Assembly: GCA_038888615.1 (NCBI GenBank)
Contig: JAWAID010000001.1
Location: 682,001-746,000 of the forward strand
Length of the DNA stretch: 64,000 nt
Direction: 5' to 3'
Source: Candidatus Korarchaeum sp.
Lineage (GTDB): Archaea > Korarchaeota > Korarchaeia > Korarchaeales > Korarchaeaceae
The translations under genes and the position numbers were made by a program. The notes under the pieces were generated by a model. That model was not told the origin of the DNA. It saw only the letters and a list, made by a program, of their open reading frames with translations, and did not search any database. Every line of letters starts with the position of its first letter. The first letter of the stretch is position 1. Positions 11,813 to 54,033 of this stretch are shown one piece after another.

Positions 11813-12144
11813 GCCTCAACAATTTAAGAAAAAGTTTGACCTAATGCGTGGCGGCACCCCCGATACGATTCCCCTTCGATACCCAAAATACCATCATGTT
11901 AAATAGCTTTACCACTGGTTCCTGATGAAGTTATTAATATTAAGCTCACGCTAAGCTGACACTCATTCAGCGAAGTGTACCTCATCCCCCACTAGCCATA
12001 GACCTCCCTTTGAGCTGGCTGAGGTTCCATACCGATCGCACGAGATCTATGAGGACAATTCCTTAGGGAAACCGCTGATCGCAGTGAGGTTTCGGAGCAC
12101 GGTATCTTAATATCCCACTCCCCTTGAATCTTCAGGTGACTCAT
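11813..12144. other. intergenic region without a gene
   Basis: This is about 330 bp between the divergent etfB and HEPN genes. The etfB promoter lies at the left end and a CTTAATATCC TATA-like element near 12107-12116 precedes the HEPN gene. No ORF, tRNA or clear hairpin was found. An AT-rich patch (around GTTATTAATATTAAGC near 11930) has no visible partner. Confidence 0.4.
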
Positions 12145-12579
12145 GTGGTTTCCCGCGTCTCTGACTGGTTAAGACAGGCTTTGAGGGATCTGAAGCATGC
12201 TGAGAGATCGATTGAACTCGGAGATTATGAGTGGGCCTGCTTCGCCGCTCACCAGGCCGCAGAGAAAGCAGTTAAGGCCCTTTACCAGAAGCTCGGAGTC
12301 GAGGTCTGGGGTCACTCCGTATCACGCATGCTCGATTCCCTTCCCGAAGAATACAGGCCCCCTGAGGAGCTCATTAATGAGGCCAAGGAGCTCGATAGGA
12401 ACTATATCCCCACCAGATATCCGAACTTTCATTCTGAGGGTGCACCAATGGATTATTATACTAGGAGGGATGCTGAGGAGGCGGTGAGTTACGCGCGTGA
12501 GATCCTGGAGTACTGCAGGAGTAAGGTTCTTCAAGATGGAGTACGAGGGGGTCCTCAAGAGGCTCGTGGACTACGCTGA
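12145..12579 (+). CDS. HEPN-domain protein (toxin partner of MNT)
   Basis: This small all-helical HEPN protein is of the PF05168 type, paired with a minimal nucleotidyltransferase. The typical pattern is SDWLRQALRDLKHAERSIE, YEWACFAAHQAAEKAVKAL and HSVSRMLDSLP, then YIPTRYPNFHSEGAP. RYPNFH fits the R-x4-H signature of HEPN RNases. HEPN members of such pairs are often RNA-cleaving toxins, but toxicity is not shown here. The GTG at 12145 follows AGGTGA; an ORF extension to 12124 starts with TTG. The 3' end overlaps the MNT gene by 44 bp. A second HEPN/MNT pair is at 53.3-54.0 kb. Confidence 0.8.
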   Translation: MVSRVSDWLRQALRDLKHAERSIELGDYEWACFAAHQAAEKAVKALYQKLGVEVWGHSVSRMLDSLPEEYRPPEELINEAKELDRNYIPTRYPNFHSEGAPMDYYTRRDAEEAVSYAREILEYCRSKVLQDGVRGGPQEARGLR

Positions 12580-12925
12580 GAGGGCAGTAGCTAGGGGTGC
12601 CAAGGCCGTGATCCTCGTTGGCTCTCTCGCCAGAGGGGACTACACAGCATTTTCCGATGCGGACATCATAATAATATCGGATGAGGTCCCCGAGAACCCC
12701 ATCAGGAGGATCTCGGATTTCATGGACCCCTCGCTGCCAGTGGACGTAGAACCCCTTGTCCTTACCACAGAGGAGTTCCTAAAAATGGCTAAGGAGGGAA
12801 GAAGGATAGTCAGAGAGGCTATATTTTACGGGAAGCTGTTGTTCGGAGATCCCGAGATAATCAAAGCGGCCAGCAGGTATCTTGAATCTGAGGACGGAAG
12901 CTCAGAGAGATGGGAAGGGGAGTGA
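12536..12925 (+). CDS. minimal nucleotidyltransferase (MNT), antitoxin-type
   Basis: This is a pol-beta-fold nucleotidyltransferase. The G-S-x10-D-x-D active site is GSLARGDYTAFSDADIIII, and the third acidic position is likely in LPVDVEPLVLT. It is 129 aa, the size of stand-alone MNT proteins. Paired MNTs can neutralise HEPN toxins by adding AMP to them, as reported for HepT/MntA; this function is inferred. It overlaps the upstream HEPN gene, so the two are coupled. The ATG at 12536 is used because the protein N-terminus (MEYEGVLKRLVDYAERAVARG) matches the family. Confidence 0.8.
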   Translation: MEYEGVLKRLVDYAERAVARGAKAVILVGSLARGDYTAFSDADIIIISDEVPENPIRRISDFMDPSLPVDVEPLVLTTEEFLKMAKEGRRIVREAIFYGKLLFGDPEIIKAASRYLESEDGSSERWEGE

Positions 12926-41453: not shown

Positions 41454-42575
41454 ATGCCTGATGAGAGCGACATAAAGGTGATAGAAGCGGGCTATCTGAG
41501 GTGGATGCTGAGAGCGAACCCTTTCGCTTACCTGAGTAGTGAGAGCTTGGAGGAAGTGAGGGATGTTCACGTCGATACCGATGTCGATGAGAGGTTAGCC
41601 GAGCTCCTCCGAGATGTCGTGAGGGGTGAGGGTAAGAGGATAGTGTTCCTGGTCGGGGAGTTCGGGACGGGGAAGACGCATAGGCTGAGGCTAATAGGGG
41701 AGGTGTTGGAGGAGGCATCCACTTTCTACGTTAAGATAGACGTCGATGACTACGCCTCCTCGATCTACAGGATAGCTAACGTCGTCAAGAGCACCCCCAT
41801 TAAGGTGATCAGGAGGAAGCTACCGAAGGACCCCGATGTCCTACTGGGCATGATAAGGGATGAGCTCAACAGCTACGAGGTCTCTGTACTCCTGCTAGAT
41901 GAGGTAGAGAACGTCGTAGTCTTCGGGACTAGAAAGGACGCTGAGCTCTTCTCTAAGGCAATATCCAAGCTATTTCAAGAACTGAGGGAGGGCAGGGCGA
42001 TAGTGATAGGCTGCATACCGCCCGCTTACGATATAATGAAGAGGCTGATAGAGGCGCCTCACGATAAGATCGAGATGAGGAGGCTCAGTCCCGCGGAAGC
42101 CAGTCGTATCCTTAAGAGGAGGTTGGAATACTACAGGACCGTTATGAATAGGGAAGCCAGGGAACTAGGACTCGAAGAACCCTTCACCGAGGACCTAGTG
42201 ATCAAGATGAATGAGATGGCTGAGGGAAACCCGAGGAAGCTCATGAAGATAGCTAGGAACGTTTTAGCTGTCCTCACCAAGGAGTTGAGGGAGAGCGGAA
42301 AGCTGAGCAAGGAGAAGGTCCTTCAGATCGTGAGATCGGCTGACGAGGGTAAGGAGGCCCCTCACGAGGGGGACCATACGGAGGTGGTGGAGGGCATGAG
42401 ACCCGAGTTCTCCCTCTTAAGGCAGAAGTTCCCACCCGGCACTTCTTTCTCCCTGATACAGGCTTCTAAAGTATGGGGACTTAAGCTGACTCAGGCTAAC
42501 GCTCTCCTGAATGAGCTCCTGAGGGAGGGAGTGATCTACAAGACGGAATCCGGGAGGTACTCCTTCAGGAAGTAG
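41454..42575 (+). CDS. AAA+ ATPase with C-terminal winged helix
   Basis: Family not specifically recognised. Walker A is FLVGEFGTGKTHRLRL, Walker B VLLLDEVENVVVFG, with IVIGCIPPAYDIMKR (sensor 1) and EMAEGNPRKLMKIARN (sensor 2-like). The last ~60 residues look like a winged helix (LIQASKVWGLKLTQANALLNELLREGVIYKTES). The layout resembles Orc1/Cdc6 and ExeA-like ATPases. It is 373 aa. AGTATATAAAC (41401-41411) and AAGGAGAGG give it a strong promoter and binding site. A role in DNA metabolism or gene control is inferred only. Confidence 0.75.
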   Translation: MPDESDIKVIEAGYLRWMLRANPFAYLSSESLEEVRDVHVDTDVDERLAELLRDVVRGEGKRIVFLVGEFGTGKTHRLRLIGEVLEEASTFYVKIDVDDYASSIYRIANVVKSTPIKVIRRKLPKDPDVLLGMIRDELNSYEVSVLLLDEVENVVVFGTRKDAELFSKAISKLFQELREGRAIVIGCIPPAYDIMKRLIEAPHDKIEMRRLSPAEASRILKRRLEYYRTVMNREARELGLEEPFTEDLVIKMNEMAEGNPRKLMKIARNVLAVLTKELRESGKLSKEKVLQIVRSADEGKEAPHEGDHTEVVEGMRPEFSLLRQKFPPGTSFSLIQASKVWGLKLTQANALLNELLREGVIYKTESGRYSFRK

Positions 42576-42942
42576 TCCTTTTCGAGGACCTCCTCTCCCT
42601 GGCTAAGTCCCTCAGCACCAACCTCCAGAACTCGAAGATCCCCCTGGATTCTAGCTCATCGAAGGGATCCTCATACGAGAACTCCTGAAGGGCATCTAGG
42701 ATCTTAGGGAGATCCGAGATATCGTAGGAGATCAGCTTCGCCAGTATATCGCTCTCCCCGTACTCACCCCTCCCTATCTCCCGGAGGACCGTGAGCAAGT
42801 GCTCCCTGAGATAAGGATCCTCCAGGTCAGATAACTTGCTCATTAGCTCCTCGATCTCGGTCTTGCTAACGCTACCTCCTGACCTTATCCTCCTTATGAT
42901 CTCCGTTAAGCCGGTGGCTAGCTCCTCCTGAGGACCCATCAT
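42565..42942 (-). CDS. hypothetical helical protein
   Basis: I do not recognise this gene. The 125-aa protein is helical and rich in Glu/Arg/Leu; it has no Cys, no membrane helix and no known motif. The start is a run of TTG-ATG-ATG at 42945-42939, and I use the ATG at 42942. Its 3' end overlaps the convergent AAA gene by 11 bp. Codon use resembles its neighbours. Confidence 0.6.
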   Translation of the reverse strand: MMGPQEELATGLTEIIRRIRSGGSVSKTEIEELMSKLSDLEDPYLREHLLTVLREIGRGEYGESDILAKLISYDISDLPKILDALQEFSYEDPFDELESRGIFEFWRLVLRDLARERRSSKRTTS

Positions 42943-43153
42943 CAAGGCAATCCGTCACGCTTTTTAAAAATCCCTCCCCTCGATCGAGGGGATGAAGTAA
43001 AAGGCCCACCGAGTTTATGAGAGAGGATCTTGAGTACTGACCCCTCAGTTGAAAATGAAGTGGACTGGATGCGGATTACCGTCAATTACCTTGAAGGGAG
43101 ATTCCCCCTCTCACTACGGAAAATTTTATTTAGTGAAGCCCCCACTAAGCTGA

Positions 43154-43226
43154 GGGCCGGTGGTCTAGTGGCTATGACGCCGCCTTGACGAGGCGGAGGC
43201 CGTGGGTTCGAGTCCCACCCGGCCCA
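43154..43226 (+). tRNA. tRNA-Val (GAC)
   Basis: Cloverleaf: acceptor GGGCCGG/CCGGCCC, D-arm from GTGGTCTAGTGG, anticodon stem CCGCC/GGCGG around TTGACGA giving anticodon GAC, and T-arm GTGGG-TTCGAGT-CCCAC. Discriminator A; no CCA encoded; no intron seen. An AAATTTTATTTAG TATA-like element lies about 30 bp upstream. Close relative of the Val(CAC) tRNA at 54.4 kb. Confidence 0.97.
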
Positions 43227-43244
43227 TTAAAAAGCGGTGAGAGG

Positions 43245-43526
43245 ATGGCGAGGTACTCTATCGCTAGGTTAGCGAGCAAACCCGTGATCACTGACCAGGG
43301 GCTGCTGCTGGGCGAGGTCACCGACTTGGTCGTAGATGAGATATCCGGGAAGGTCCTCTCACTGATAATAAGGAGCAACAGGGGAGCTGCTGACGCGCTA
43401 CTCCAGAAGCTCAAGAGGGACAGGAAGGGGAACGTCCTAGTCCCCTACTCCACGGTGAAGTACATAAGGGAGATGATAGTGATAGATGAAAGGCTCCTCA
43501 AGGTCTACATAGCTACGAAGAGCTAG
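43245..43526 (+). CDS. PRC-barrel domain protein
   Basis: A small beta-barrel protein of the PRC type, found in archaea as short proteins of unclear role (RNA- or cell-division-related links reported). VITDQGLLLGEVTDLVVDEISGKVLSLIIRS is the PRC core. It is 93 aa from the ATG at 43245 after GGTGAGAGG, just past the tRNA. The longer ORF into the tRNA is not real. It overlaps the next convergent ORF by 14 bp. Confidence 0.8.
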   Translation: MARYSIARLASKPVITDQGLLLGEVTDLVVDEISGKVLSLIIRSNRGAADALLQKLKRDRKGNVLVPYSTVKYIREMIVIDERLLKVYIATKS

Positions 43527-43779
43527 TTTCATACTCTGAACCGATACTCCTGTAGAGGAGATCAGCTAGGTCCTCAGATAGGTTGGTGAGGATCACCTTG
43601 AGTCCCAGCCTCGGTTCCCTCATCAGGTCCCAGACATCAGGCCTAGGTGCCCCCATCTCCTCATATACCTCCTCCAAGAGCTCGGAGAATTCCTCCAAGA
43701 GTTCCCTGTCTCCCTCAGCTAGGTACCTCCTGGCTAGGGCCCTCAGCCTCAGATTCAACTCGAGCAACCTCTCGAGCAT
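43513..43779 (-). CDS. hypothetical small helical protein
   Basis: Not recognised. The 88 residues are Leu/Glu-rich, with predicted helices and a Pro-rich turn (MGAPRPDVWDLMREP). The ATG at 43779 is preceded by GGGTGACC. It lies between the PRC-barrel and rpoG genes on the opposite strand. The good binding site and codon use favour it being real. Confidence 0.55.
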   Translation of the reverse strand: MLERLLELNLRLRALARRYLAEGDRELLEEFSELLEEVYEEMGAPRPDVWDLMREPRLGLKVILTNLSEDLADLLYRSIGSEYETSSS

Positions 43780-43842: not shown

Positions 43843-44175
43843 GTGAGAGCCCTGCTCAAGTCCCTGAGGAAGGATCCCCTGTTCGATGTAGATGTGCTGG
43901 AGTTCTCAGCGACTGACGGCTCCTTCGAGTTCACCCTGGAGTTCCCGAGAGGTCTGCTCGCGTTCAGGGAGGGAAGCGAGGTTGAGGTGAGCTTGGGTGA
44001 GGAGGAAGAAAATGCAGATGTCCTGATGAAGGGCATAGTTTACAGGGTCGATGACGCCTCCAAGGTGATCGAGGTATCTTTCCACGGTCTCCTCCTCAGG
44101 ATGACCTACCGCAAGAGGCCCCCGTTCGATCTCAGCGAGGGGAGCGAGGTCTACCTATCCCTGAGGTTCCGATAA
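43843..44175 (+). CDS. rpoG: RNA polymerase subunit G (Rpb8 homologue)
   Basis: This resembles eukaryotic Rpb8. The conserved middle is VLMKGIVYRVDD, then VIEVSFHGLLLRMTY, and the last strand GSEVYLSLRFR, matching the Rpb8 pattern V-M-x-G-x-V-Y-R, S-x-G-G-L-L-M-R and V-Y-L. It is 110 aa, the archaeal size. The start is GTG at 43843 after AAGGTGAAAG; CCTTTTTATTC near 43800 is the TATA box. Archaeal Rpb8 is known only from crenarchaea and korarchaea, so this helps place the organism. Confidence 0.8.
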   Translation: MRALLKSLRKDPLFDVDVLEFSATDGSFEFTLEFPRGLLAFREGSEVEVSLGEEEENADVLMKGIVYRVDDASKVIEVSFHGLLLRMTYRKRPPFDLSEGSEVYLSLRFR

Positions 44176-44242
44176 TCATGAAACTTTTTATCCACATTTC
44201 CGGAGGAAAATATTAATATTTTAGGGATAGAGCGGTATATTG

Positions 44243-44857
44243 ATGAATGAACTTTCAACGTATGATGAACCCGAGCTCATCGGGGAGGCCGGGGGTCGCT
44301 CACCACTCCCGAGGAGGAGTCATCCAGCGGTGAGGAGGATAGCTGAGTCACTGGGAGTACCTGAGGAGGTTGAGAGGACAGCTAACAACCTATTGCTGTG
44401 GTACAAGCTAGTTAAGAGGAGGAGAGCGACTCCTCCAGTCAGCTTGGCGTCTATCGTACTAGCGAGCAGGATGCACGGGGTTGCTATACCGATCAAATCG
44501 TTGAACGTATCTGGGAGGGCTCTGATGAGGGCCTTGGGGGAGCTGAAGTCCCTGGCGAGGAAGGAGGACGACTGGGACTCCTACTTGAACTACGTCATGA
44601 CGAGACTCATGTTAGCCTTGAGCCTGGAGAACAAGCACCTGGTGAGGGAGAGGATACTCGTTAGAGCGAAGAGGGAGCTCAGGGTACTCAGGGAGAGGGC
44701 TCCCGGTAAGAACCCCTTGGGGGTAGTCGCTCTCGCGGTTTACTCAGCGACCAAGGGGTGCGGTCTTAGGGTATCGCTCGATACGGTGGCTAGGTGCTCG
44801 GGGGTCCACAGGAACACGCTCTACAGGATAGCGAGGGGGCTGAGGGATGGAGGATGA
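44243..44857 (+). CDS. TFB-like protein lacking the zinc ribbon
   Basis: It has two cyclin-like repeats as in TFB/TFIIB: about residues 25-110 and 115-204, the second ending GKNPLGVVALAVYSATKGCG then a helix-turn-helix (VSLDTVARCSGVHRNTLYRIARGL). The N-terminal zinc ribbon and B-finger are missing; instead there is a 25-residue acidic, Gly-rich start. It could bind TBP/DNA but not recruit polymerase normally, so a repressor or alternative factor is possible. Leaderless ATG at 44243 (TATA TTAATATTTTAG about 44212-44223). The stop overlaps the next tiny gene by 11 bp. Confidence 0.72.
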   Translation: MNELSTYDEPELIGEAGGRSPLPRRSHPAVRRIAESLGVPEEVERTANNLLLWYKLVKRRRATPPVSLASIVLASRMHGVAIPIKSLNVSGRALMRALGELKSLARKEDDWDSYLNYVMTRLMLALSLENKHLVRERILVRAKRELRVLRERAPGKNPLGVVALAVYSATKGCGLRVSLDTVARCSGVHRNTLYRIARGLRDGG

Positions 44858-44975
44858 GCTGAGGTTCGAGATGGAGATCATCAGGAACCAGATAGAGTAC
44901 CTCTTCTTCAAGCTGGAGGAGGTGATCAGGAGGATCGAGAGGATAGAGGAGAGCTTAACCGAGCTTCGACGGTGA
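44847..44975 (+). CDS. 42-aa coiled-coil peptide
   Basis: This short gene begins within the TFB-like gene (ATG at 44847, after GGGGGCTGAGGG) and ends four bases before the HerA ATPase start. The peptide is one amphipathic Glu/Arg/Ile helix with regular heptads (EYLFFKLEEVIRRIERIEE). Its location and codon use suggest it is translated and works with one of its neighbours, for example as an oligomerising partner. No homologue known to me. Confidence 0.55.
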   Translation: MEDELRFEMEIIRNQIEYLFFKLEEVIRRIERIEESLTELRR

Positions 44976-44979
44976 GCGG

Positions 44980-46641
44980 ATGGAGAGGGACCTATTAACA
45001 ATCGCTATAGCCGTAGCTTTTCCAATAGCGCTTCTGATGATCTATCGCAAGGAAATAGGGACACTCACGGTGTACGGGGCCTCAGCTGCACTGATACTAG
45101 CTGCATTAGCGCCCCCGCTCCTCCTCCTAATCAGGCGCCGCGGGCCGAGGGCTACTAGCAAAAGGGAAGTTATTTTAGCTAAGATCAATATTTATGATAA
45201 AAATACAAGTATAAATGTTAATAAGATTAAAGAAATAGCGGAATCAATGGGAATAGGAGCAGCTTTGCTCTCAGCGGTCAACGGCGGGAGGAGGGTCATG
45301 GGGAGGAGCTTGGGCAGCAGGGTGAGCTACGGCATGCTCATATGGGCCGATGGGAGAGGGAAGGAAGGGAGGGAGGTAATAAGAGCAGCTGTTTCAGCGA
45401 TAAACAGCTCTTCTGAGGGATTTAAGCTTGAGATAATCGAGAGAAGGATTGATCCCGAGGTAATATCGCTCCTCCTCGGGATGCCTGATGTCAAGGAGCC
45501 GATCCCCGTGGAGGTGGGGAGGGAGGAGAGAAGGAGCGAGCTCCTGATAGAGATAGGGGAGAGGAGGGGAAAGGTGATAAGTATAGGAGCCGAGGAATTA
45601 ACTAAGCACGTCCTGATAGCTGGTCAAACAGGCTCAGGGAAGACGACGACGGCTAAGAGGATAGTTTACGAGGCCTGGAACCTGGGGATACCCTCGCTCA
45701 TAATGGACTCCCACTGGGAGTACAGGAACCTCGTCCTGCAGCTAGGGGGGAGGGTCTTCTTCAACAGGCAGGGCTACCCTCAGGTATGCGTCAACCCCCT
45801 GGCCTCGATACCTAGGGGTGAGAAGGAGGTCTTCCTTGTCGCTGAGACCCTATCTACACTCCTAGATCTGACTCCCTCTCAGTTCTACATCCTCCTGAAG
45901 GCATTACGTAGGCTTAGCGATTTATCGACCGAGAAGAATCCCCCAAACATGCTCGATCTGATCGTCGAGGTTAAGGCGATGGCATCCGGCTCCCAACCCG
46001 AGGAGGAGAGCAAGGCTGCTCTCATTAGGAAGCTGGAGCCCCTAGTTTCGGGAGGCGGTGAGACCCTCTTCTCCTGCGATAACATCCTCTCGACGGGCTT
46101 CGAGGACGCGCTGACGCTGGTCGAGCTGGGGGATATAGAGAGCGACCTGCAGAAGCAGTTACTGGCCACCTTCATCCTGAAGAAGGTGAAGGACCGCTTC
46201 ATAAGGGAGGAAGCCAAATCCAACTTCCCAAGGCTCCTAATAGTTTTGGAGGAAGCTGAAAAGCTCATACCTAAGTATAAGGATTCTATTGGATTTGAGC
46301 TAGTGAGCAGGCTATTCGCTGAGCTCAGGAAGTTCGGTATCTCGCTCGTAATGGTATCCCAGAGCCTCTCCGAGGTACCTGAGGCCGCCATCAGGAACAC
46401 CGGGGTTAAGCTGATACATAGGGTGGACTCGCCCAGCGACCTGAGGCTCCTGAGGGGATCGGGTGAGAGGGGCGTCATCGAGAAGGCGAGAACTCTCATG
46501 CCGGGGGAGTGCATCCTGATAGCCCCCTACAGCGTGGAGGTTCTGCAGGTTAGGGCCGTTGATGAATTGCCCCTCAGGAGGGAGAGGGCAGATGATCTGG
46601 TGAGGACGAACAGCTTCTACTGGCCCCTATCCCAGTTTTGA
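44980..46641 (+). CDS. membrane-anchored HerA/FtsK-like ATPase
   Basis: Residues 1-55 include two hydrophobic helices (LLTIAIAVAFPIALLMIY and VYGASAALILAALAPPLLLLI). After a linker, the ATPase domain has Walker A LIAGQTGSGKTTTAKR (~residue 210), SLIMDSHWEYRNL, Walker B LLIVLEEAEKLIPKY (~415) and an arginine-finger-like end. It is of the HerA/VirB4 class that moves DNA. Membrane tethering points to DNA transfer or segregation instead of NurA-linked resection; no nurA, mre11 or rad50 is here. GGTGAGCGG precedes the ATG. A low-GC patch lies at 45180-45245. Confidence 0.75.
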   Translation: MERDLLTIAIAVAFPIALLMIYRKEIGTLTVYGASAALILAALAPPLLLLIRRRGPRATSKREVILAKINIYDKNTSINVNKIKEIAESMGIGAALLSAVNGGRRVMGRSLGSRVSYGMLIWADGRGKEGREVIRAAVSAINSSSEGFKLEIIERRIDPEVISLLLGMPDVKEPIPVEVGREERRSELLIEIGERRGKVISIGAEELTKHVLIAGQTGSGKTTTAKRIVYEAWNLGIPSLIMDSHWEYRNLVLQLGGRVFFNRQGYPQVCVNPLASIPRGEKEVFLVAETLSTLLDLTPSQFYILLKALRRLSDLSTEKNPPNMLDLIVEVKAMASGSQPEEESKAALIRKLEPLVSGGGETLFSCDNILSTGFEDALTLVELGDIESDLQKQLLATFILKKVKDRFIREEAKSNFPRLLIVLEEAEKLIPKYKDSIGFELVSRLFAELRKFGISLVMVSQSLSEVPEAAIRNTGVKLIHRVDSPSDLRLLRGSGERGVIEKARTLMPGECILIAPYSVEVLQVRAVDELPLRRERADDLVRTNSFYWPLSQF

Positions 46642-47157
46642 GATCTCATCAAGTATCGAGAGGAAGTCCTGAGTCCAATCGAACCTCCTACGTTTCCCAC
46701 TTATAGCCACCTCGAGCTCCTCCTCCAGAGTCCCCTCGCAGCCATCCACCTCGAGTACCCTATCGCTAATCTCCATGGCGTCGAAGAGGGGTCCATCTAT
46801 GGCTTCGTACTCAACGTTCTCCCTTATCTTCCTCCCGCTGTAACCCCTCTCCCTCAACCTCCTGAGCAGTAGGGAGGGCCTGCACCTTACGACCACGACG
46901 AGGGAGACCCTCTCCTTAGGGATGGCGTAGGGGCTGATGGTCTCTATGACTAAGCAGCTTGCCTTCTCGAGGATTCCGGAGATCTCCTCTCTCACCCTAT
47001 CCTCATCTATCACGTAACTGTCCCTTTCAACGTCCCTCTCAATGATAAAACCCTTCTCCAAGGCTAAATCGCCTACGTTCAAGTAAGCGCAGTTCAATCT
47101 CTCGGAGAGGGCCTTAGCCACCGCAGTCTTACCCGAGCCGGGCGCGCCCAGGACCAC
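46627..47157 (-). CDS. adenylate kinase-like NTPase (AK6/Fap7)
   Basis: A small P-loop kinase/ATPase needed for late 18S/16S rRNA processing in eukaryotes and archaea. VLGAPGSGKTAVAKAL, YLNVGDLALEKGFI, IDEDRVREEI and the AK6 motif ENVEYEAIDGPLFDAMEISDRVLEVD. It is 176 aa. GTG at 47157 is leaderless, since the TATA at 47175-47186 is about 25 bp away. Its 3' end overlaps the HerA gene by 15 bp. Confidence 0.9.
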   Translation of the reverse strand: MVLGAPGSGKTAVAKALSERLNCAYLNVGDLALEKGFIIERDVERDSYVIDEDRVREEISGILEKASCLVIETISPYAIPKERVSLVVVVRCRPSLLLRRLRERGYSGRKIRENVEYEAIDGPLFDAMEISDRVLEVDGCEGTLEEELEVAISGKRRRFDWTQDFLSILDEISKLG

Positions 47158-53333: not shown

Positions 53334-53687
53334 TCACAGGATTCTGATACCCTCCTCATCTATCGTTTTGATCCATTTTGAATTCCTCATTTCCTCATAC
53401 TCCTTTAAGGAGAGGATGTGTAACTCCAGTCTCGGCAGCTTGATGTTCTTCATTAGGGTCTTATACACATCATCCTCCTCGCATTGCGTGTCGTCGAAAA
53501 CCACGAGGAGGTCTATATCACTGCCCGCAGTATAGCGCTTCTTGGCGTAGGAGCCAAAGATTACAACCTTTTTCAAGGCCAGACTTTCAGATAGAAGAGA
53601 AACTACTCTACTCACCTCTCTTATAACGTCCTCTTGGCTAAGCTTTGGAAAGAAGACCCTTACAGAACTCGAGTATTTCCTCCGCAT
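53334..53687 (-). CDS. minimal nucleotidyltransferase (MNT) of second HEPN pair
   Basis: Active site GSYAKKRYTAGSDIDLLVV matches G-S-x10-D-x-D; the third acidic position is probably in RLELHIL. 117 aa. It overlaps the upstream HEPN gene by 50 bp and is presumably coupled. It differs clearly from the MNT at 12.5 kb. The role (AMP-adding antitoxin) is inferred from related pairs. Confidence 0.8.
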   Translation of the reverse strand: MRRKYSSSVRVFFPKLSQEDVIREVSRVVSLLSESLALKKVVIFGSYAKKRYTAGSDIDLLVVFDDTQCEEDDVYKTLMKNIKLPRLELHILSLKEYEEMRNSKWIKTIDEEGIRIL

Positions 53688-54033
53688 ACCTAATCAGCCT
53701 CTCAGCCTCCTCCCTAGTGTATCGCCTCCTCGGCGAAGAGGAGGGATGAGCATTTGGATACCTAGTGGGGATATAAGCCTTATCAAGTTCGAGAGAATGC
53801 TCTAGCAGCGTTGTACTGACGGGTTCTTTCTCCTTGAGATGTAGTAGAAGATCGTAGACCGAGTGTCCCCATGCCTCTGCACCCAGCCTCTGAAGCACCG
53901 CCTTAACTGCCTTCTCCGCTGACTGCTGCGCTGAGAAACAGGCCCAGTCGTAGAAGCCATATTTCAAATCATGCTTCGCATGCTCCAAATCGCCCTCAGC
54001 CTGGTCGATCCAGTCCGCGCTTCTCTCAACCAT
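53638..54033 (-). CDS. HEPN-domain protein of second HEPN pair
   Basis: SADWIDQAEGDLEHAKHDL, YDWACFSAQQSAEKAVKAV, GHSVYDLLLHLKEKE and IPTRYPNAHPSSSPRR. The RYPNAH segment fits R-x4-H of HEPN RNases. 131 aa. Leaderless ATG at 54033 with a strong TATA (AATTTAAATATAT on this strand, near 54056-54068). About half its residues are shared with the HEPN at 12.1 kb by eye. Confidence 0.82.
   Translation of the reverse strand: MVERSADWIDQAEGDLEHAKHDLKYGFYDWACFSAQQSAEKAVKAVLQRLGAEAWGHSVYDLLLHLKEKEPVSTTLLEHSLELDKAYIPTRYPNAHPSSSPRRRYTREEAERLIRYAEEILEFCKGLLSKA

Follow-up and report, generated by a model that had tools for sequence, protein, structure and literature searches.

TFB-like factor, 42-residue coiled-coil protein and CedD-like membrane ATPase genes in a conserved chromosomal cluster of Candidatus Korarchaeum

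The window, that is the whole stretch of 64,000 nucleotides analysed here, corresponds to positions 682,001-746,000 of contig 1 of the 1.67-Mb genome of Candidatus Korarchaeum sp. Three open reading frames (ORFs), all found on the plus strand at the positions listed in Table 1, encode in this order a TFB-like factor, a small coiled-coil protein and a membrane ATPase, to which we refer as CedD-like. The small ORF overlaps the end of the TFB-like gene by 11 nt and is separated from the ATPase start by 4 nt, and the trio is enclosed between an rpoG-type gene and a convergent gene of the adenylate-kinase family.

Table 1. Features of the trio locus (positions refer to the window)
Feature	Position	Strand	Remarks
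rpoG/rpo8-like RNA polymerase subunit gene	43843..44175	+	Pfam RNA_pol_RpbG 1.2e-5, just below gathering score
Conserved box TGAAANTTTTTA	44179..44190	+	GAAANT/T-rich; candidate operator, or U-tract terminator of rpoG
BRE/TATA-like promoter of the TFB-like gene (predicted)	44202..44220	+	read from sequence
TFB-like factor, 204 aa	44243..44857	+	two cyclin repeats, without zinc ribbon, without B-reader/linker
42-aa coiled-coil protein	44847..44975	+	heptad pattern; invariant Q15, F20, F21
CedD-like membrane ATPase, 553 aa	44980..46641	+	TM 3-25, 34-53; alpha/beta 62-166; HerA/VirB4 ATPase 186-530
AK6/Fap7-like adenylate-kinase-family gene	46627..47157	-	NCBIfam PRK03839 3e-27, under cutoff; convergent with the ATPase gene

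Upstream of these features, a tRNA-Val gene (43154-43226) overlaps the mechanical start of a PRC-barrel ORF (43185-43526), whose true start is therefore probably at 43245. Two small uncharacterised genes lie on the minus strand: the one at 42565-42945 recurs here in most genus genomes having that flank, and the one at 43513-43779 recurs at the locus in fewer relatives. Elsewhere in the window, two adjacent small gene pairs (12124-12925 and 53334-54033) appear by eye to be of the HEPN/MNT nucleotidyltransferase toxin-antitoxin type.

About 29 nt 5' of the ATG of the TFB-like gene we read a BRE/TATA-like stretch, GGAGGAAAATATTAATATT, in agreement, at the level of prediction, with an earlier note on this DNA, which had credited the gene with a promoter of its own. 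Placed as it is, GGAGGAAAATATTAATATT could serve as the promoter of a leaderless transcript, and a similar stretch of the AATATTAATATT type is found upstream in four genomes (G011, G012, G014 and G003). In addition, 14 of the 15 upstream regions of the genus carry a GAAANT/T-rich box between rpoG and the putative promoter, at 16-20 nt from the BRE, with an N that differs between subclades; the sequence TGAAANTTTT is present in a single exact copy in the window. Read as TGAAANTTTTAT, the box corresponds in reverse complement to A(N)TTTC, the damage element of Sulfolobales, but its orientation and distance are wrong for that element; A(N)TTTC in its Sulfolobales position and orientation was not found upstream of the Korarchaeal operon. 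The box TGAAANTTTTAT may also act as the rpoG terminator.

The TFB-like protein matches the Pfam TFIIB repeat twice (4.2e-6, above the gathering score) and, like canonical TFB, carries two cyclin repeats, the second of which ends in a helix-turn-helix. A Foldseek search with its AF2 model (pLDDT 81) retrieved TFIIB and archaeal (Pyrococcus) TFB at 3e-5, the relative placing of the two repeats being uncertain in this model (pTM 0.54, rmsd ~11 A over both). The other hallmarks of canonical TFB, zinc ribbon and B-reader/linker, are lacking; specifically, the N-terminal CxxC motif is absent from the window protein, which is therefore devoid of a zinc ribbon. In the tree, the TFB-like proteins form a clade apart from canonical TFB (support 100/100), and a canonical TFB is additionally present in every Korarchaeum genome checked.

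Orthologs of the factor were found in 25 Korarchaeia genomes, and all of them retain the two cyclin repeats. An N-terminal zinc ribbon is carried by 16 of the 25, including both outgroups (G024 and G025), and is absent from the remaining nine, which belong to at least four lineages according to our reading of the groups. The earlier description of the factor as a zinc-ribbon-less TFB thus suits the window protein and fails as a family trait: on the sequences compared, absence of the ribbon is a derived trait of the subclade to which the window belongs. The ribbon-to-core spacing is about 25 residues in the ribbon-bearing TFB-like proteins vs about 75 in canonical TFB, and the B-reader and linker are therefore missing from the TFB-like proteins. 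Selection would appear to keep the TBP/DNA binding of the factor and to tolerate the loss of polymerase recruitment.

The 42-residue ORF, which had been put forward as an overlapping coiled-coil gene, proved to be real. It is present in every one of the 15 genus genomes whose locus could be read, and a search for the peptide elsewhere, as the earlier note had proposed, returned one copy per genus genome, solely at this locus. Its pN/pS values (0.08-0.35, ten pairs) denote purifying selection, and the sequence combines the invariant Q..FF residues with a regular 3-4 spacing of hydrophobic positions. Therefore, based on conservation, pN/pS, invariant residues and spacing, we conclude that the small ORF is, by these criteria, a translated gene. 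Outside the genus, the coiled-coil profile gave weak matches (E 1e-4 to 1e-2) to short stretches in other frames, which were rejected as generic coiled-coil matches.

As for the third gene, the proposal of a two-helix membrane ATPase of the HerA/FtsK type agrees with our data. Two hydrophobic helices at the N-terminus are predicted to be transmembrane (TM), and hydrophobic N-termini are found in the complete orthologs too. The HerA/VirB4 core matches Pfam DUF87 and displays the Walker motifs, with G218/G220/K221, D243 and E425 invariant in the ortholog alignment. The AF2 model (pLDDT 83.5) comprises the TM helices, an alpha/beta domain and the ATPase domain; when the latter was compared through VIA-align, the highest score was obtained with VirB4 (Z 30.4, rmsd 2.9, 326 residues aligned), followed by HerA (27.7) and TrwB (25.3). 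The alpha/beta domain, a candidate counterpart of part of the VirB4 N-terminal domain, has a moderate pLDDT, and the structural matches are dominated by the ATPase domain.

The best NCBIfam match of the ATPase is CedD (8.2e-40, 137 bits), ahead of HerA (4e-14) and CedB (2e-8). In a tree of ATPase domains, computed on a set without CedB, the Korarchaeal proteins group with Thermoproteia CedD at 97% SH-aLRT, apart from the soluble HerA proteins of the same genome. The CedD equivalog cut-off (600 bits) is not reached by the window ATPase; 26 of 229 genomes have a protein above it, most CedD-clade members in Thermoproteia scoring too low as well. We are highly confident of the annotation and orthology of the protein as CedD-like, and we use this name, and not CedD, because neither a score above the equivalog cut-off nor the remaining Ced system was found.

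The comparison was extended to 29 Korarchaeota genomes across the phylum. The order rpoG, TFB-like gene, small ORF and ATPase gene is kept in 15/15 genus genomes with a readable locus (in another one, G005, the locus is interrupted by a contig end), and the wider context, consisting of an AAA+ gene, the PRC-barrel gene and the convergent kinase gene, is largely retained. In ten more Korarchaeia genomes, belonging to other genera, families or orders, the TFB-like gene lies directly 5' of the ATPase gene, and the small ORF was not detected at this pair. Throughout Korarchaeia, rpoG is directly upstream of the pair and the AK6-like kinase gene is convergent downstream; outside the class, G026 carries the ATPase with a different upstream gene. 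An unconserved small ORF with neighbours unlinked elsewhere, which the earlier note would have held against the trio, is not what these genomes contain. Altogether, a conserved chromosomal operon, vertically inherited, appears to be the best explanation of the trio.

The same chromosomal slot is occupied by cedD in Thermoproteia. In a sample of 42 Thermoproteia cedD loci, cedD is directly downstream of rpoG in 20 and convergent with an AK6-like kinase gene in 15. The Korarchaeal slot is thus the Thermoproteia cedD slot, with the TFB-like gene inserted between rpoG and the cedD-like gene.

We then turn to the partners of CedD. CedA is present in 21/21 Thermoproteia genomes tested, and CedA, CedA1 and CedA2 were verified in a Sulfolobaceae genome (G550). 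In 21 Korarchaeota, CedA gave no match beyond noise; custom CedA and CedA1 profiles gave no match in the 29 Korarchaeota, and no CedB-level match was obtained in the phylum, so that CedA, CedA1 and CedB were not found by either family or custom profiles. With no channel detected, it is therefore the motor that carries the argument for a transport role. This leaves room for the view that the CedD-like ATPase performs another membrane DNA job (segregation of chromosomes, export of DNA, defence or secretion) and that the Ced role came later, in Thermoproteia: the 29 Korarchaeota yielded neither a Ced channel or pilin nor CedB, and the ATPase fold fits FtsK, HerA, TrwB and VirB4 equally. However, both the clade and the chromosomal slot of the ATPase are those of cedD. 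Furthermore, the Ced and Ted components have no recognisable mutual sequence similarity (PMC9905601), and therefore a diverged Korarchaeal channel could be missed and undetected channel proteins are to be expected. We consider this other role somewhat unlikely, although it is the alternative that survives best.

TFB paralogs were also found near cedD in other archaea. In Sulfolobaceae (family f76), the order in G550 is rpoG, proteasome beta, hisS, a small gene, tfb3, thermosome and a convergent cedD; tfb3 and cedD are 1.7-1.8 kb apart in seven of ten Sulfolobaceae loci and 5.5 kb apart in an eighth. This order agrees with the published locus numbers SiRe_1717 for Tfb3 (PMC10470591), SiRe_1716 for the thermosome (PMC12625751) and SiRe_1715 for CedD (PMC11868833). 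In a further Thermoproteia family, f134, a TFB3-type zinc-ribbon gene (~223 aa) is immediately upstream of cedD and co-directional with it in 4/4 genomes. With the Korarchaeal factor included, three lineages have a TFB paralog in the vicinity of cedD; in most other Thermoproteia, cedD lacks a TFB neighbour. The f134 pairs (L157:8012-10200 in G365 and L169:6011-8219 in G361; also G360 and G364) are operon-like, and the two that were checked have, upstream, a ATATTTTCACCCA motif that includes A(N)TTTC.

These neighbourhoods bear on a second alternative, according to which the TFB-like gene has no regulatory link to the ATPase and stands beside rpoG by clustering of transcription genes, the ATPase being there by ancestral position. 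Most Thermoproteia have cedD straight after rpoG and no TFB, and a TFB duplicate could have landed between the two. We find this reading improbable, as short overlaps or gaps join the TFB-like gene, the coiled-coil gene and the ATPase gene, the order is kept across Korarchaeia, and in f134 cedD directly follows the TFB3-type gene in genomes where our scan found no rpoG adjoining cedD.

Lastly, archaeal plasmids and viruses can carry TFB homologs as well as ATPases of the HerA/VirB4 type, and two tRNA genes flank the region; nonetheless, the idea, also raised in the earlier note, that the trio is what remains of a conjugative or viral element once integrated here is extremely improbable and was rejected, since the slot rpoG-(TFB)-cedD with the convergent AK6-like kinase gene is common to two archaeal phyla, Korarchaeota and Thermoproteia, a search for flanking att-like repeats gave none, and searches of plasmid, phage or viral contigs gave no close relative, only distant matches to the ATPase domain, all of them with a query coverage below 80%. 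The CedD clade in the tree, the best profile and the shared rpoG/kinase slot therefore indicate that the ATPase is not a mobile-element relic. A scan of genome contigs returned one real close relative, on a genus contig, and as second match a distant bacterial ATPase.

The mechanism that we favour, with a confidence slightly above even, is that a CedD-like DNA pump of the membrane is under the control of a TFB-type regulator encoded at the same locus. A TFB paralog with the TBP/DNA-binding core and without the polymerase-engaging parts would regulate a gene set including its own operon. Specifically, the targets of the factor would be TBP-promoter complexes, those of its own operon and perhaps of further ones, where it would act either as a competitor of canonical TFB or as a specificity factor or activator together with it, and the level of the factor would be altered by DNA damage or another signal. 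By homology, the CedD-like ATPase, anchored by its two TM helices and probably hexameric, would move DNA across the membrane, most likely for the exchange of chromosomal DNA in repair. For the 42-residue coiled coil, a role as adaptor or as oligomerisation partner, either of the TFB-like factor or of the ATPase, is probable; our guess is that it oligomerises one of the two or bridges both. The earlier thought that the trio couples gene control to DNA movement at the membrane thus receives support from homology, through the CedD clade of the ATPase and the TFB paralogs near cedD.

More tentatively, and with rather more doubt than belief, one may picture an ancient TACK-wide module coupling TFB-paralog regulators to a CedD-type pump, in which the Korarchaeal factor would have given up recruiting polymerase and become a ribbon-less TBP/DNA-binding competitor or specificity factor, and the coiled coil would link it to a DNA-exchange machine with an unrecognised type of pore and pilus. 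In Sulfolobales, where CedD and TFB3 have been investigated, activation of the DNA-exchange genes after damage is aided by TFB3; the pair found across Korarchaeia and the TFB3-type gene of f134 suggest a much longer association between regulator and motor, and that the link between TFB-type regulators and DNA exchange, discovered in Sulfolobales, extends further among archaea. Two questions can now be put to the test: do Korarchaeota pass chromosomal DNA from cell to cell, and how do TFB paralogs without one or another module (the zinc ribbon here, the second cyclin fold in TFB3) act at promoters?

Among known systems, HerA of the HerA-NurA-Mre11-Rad50 locus shares with the trio ATPase the core of the HerA/FtsK superfamily; however, HerA is soluble and paired with NurA, whereas the trio ATPase has TM helices. 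No nurA was found in the neighbourhood of the trio, as the earlier note had stated, and the two soluble HerA proteins of the genome are encoded at separate loci, with NurA-like genes. One of these loci (L202:8639-11228; contig 2 of the same genome, G000, about 485.6-488.2 kb) holds a second soluble HerA-like ATPase of 472 aa, followed by a 389-aa gene that is NurA-like by position and size, and is separate from the HerA-Mre11-Rad50 locus (L203:6976-13570).

A closer likeness is found with CedD of the Sulfolobales Ced system (SiRe_1715/SSO0283 family, arCOG00286), which likewise has an N-terminal TM anchor and a HerA/VirB4-like ATPase, as well as an N-terminal alpha/beta domain of the kind predicted in the Korarchaeal protein, and shares with the Korarchaeal protein the clade, the ancestral chromosomal slot and a TFB paralog nearby. 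The Korarchaeal ATPase gene is co-directional with the TFB-like gene, whereas cedD of Sulfolobaceae is convergent with the tfb3-thermosome pair. CedD is required for DNA import in Saccharolobus (PMC11868833); for the Korarchaeal protein, import would be a putative role.

Finally, TFB3 (SiRe_1717/Saci_0665) is a DNA-damage-induced coactivator of ced/ups genes (PMC9738581, PMC2246294, PMC5817253), is under Orc1-2 control (PMC9738581, PMC10470591) and combines a zinc ribbon with an abbreviated core, the B-finger being absent (PMC2246294). It is, like the Korarchaeal factor, a truncated TFB paralog near cedD without B-finger/reader. A first hhalign match (96%) seemed to support orthology of the two, a claim that we gave up when separate comparisons pointed to generic cyclin-repeat and zinc-ribbon homology. 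If the two factors were recruited to cedD independently, as is possible, this would in itself be noteworthy. In our profile comparison, the TFB3 core aligns with the first cyclin repeat of canonical TFB; the Korarchaeal factor is therefore a different truncation, in that TFB3 keeps the ribbon and about one cyclin fold, whereas the window protein keeps both repeats and no ribbon.
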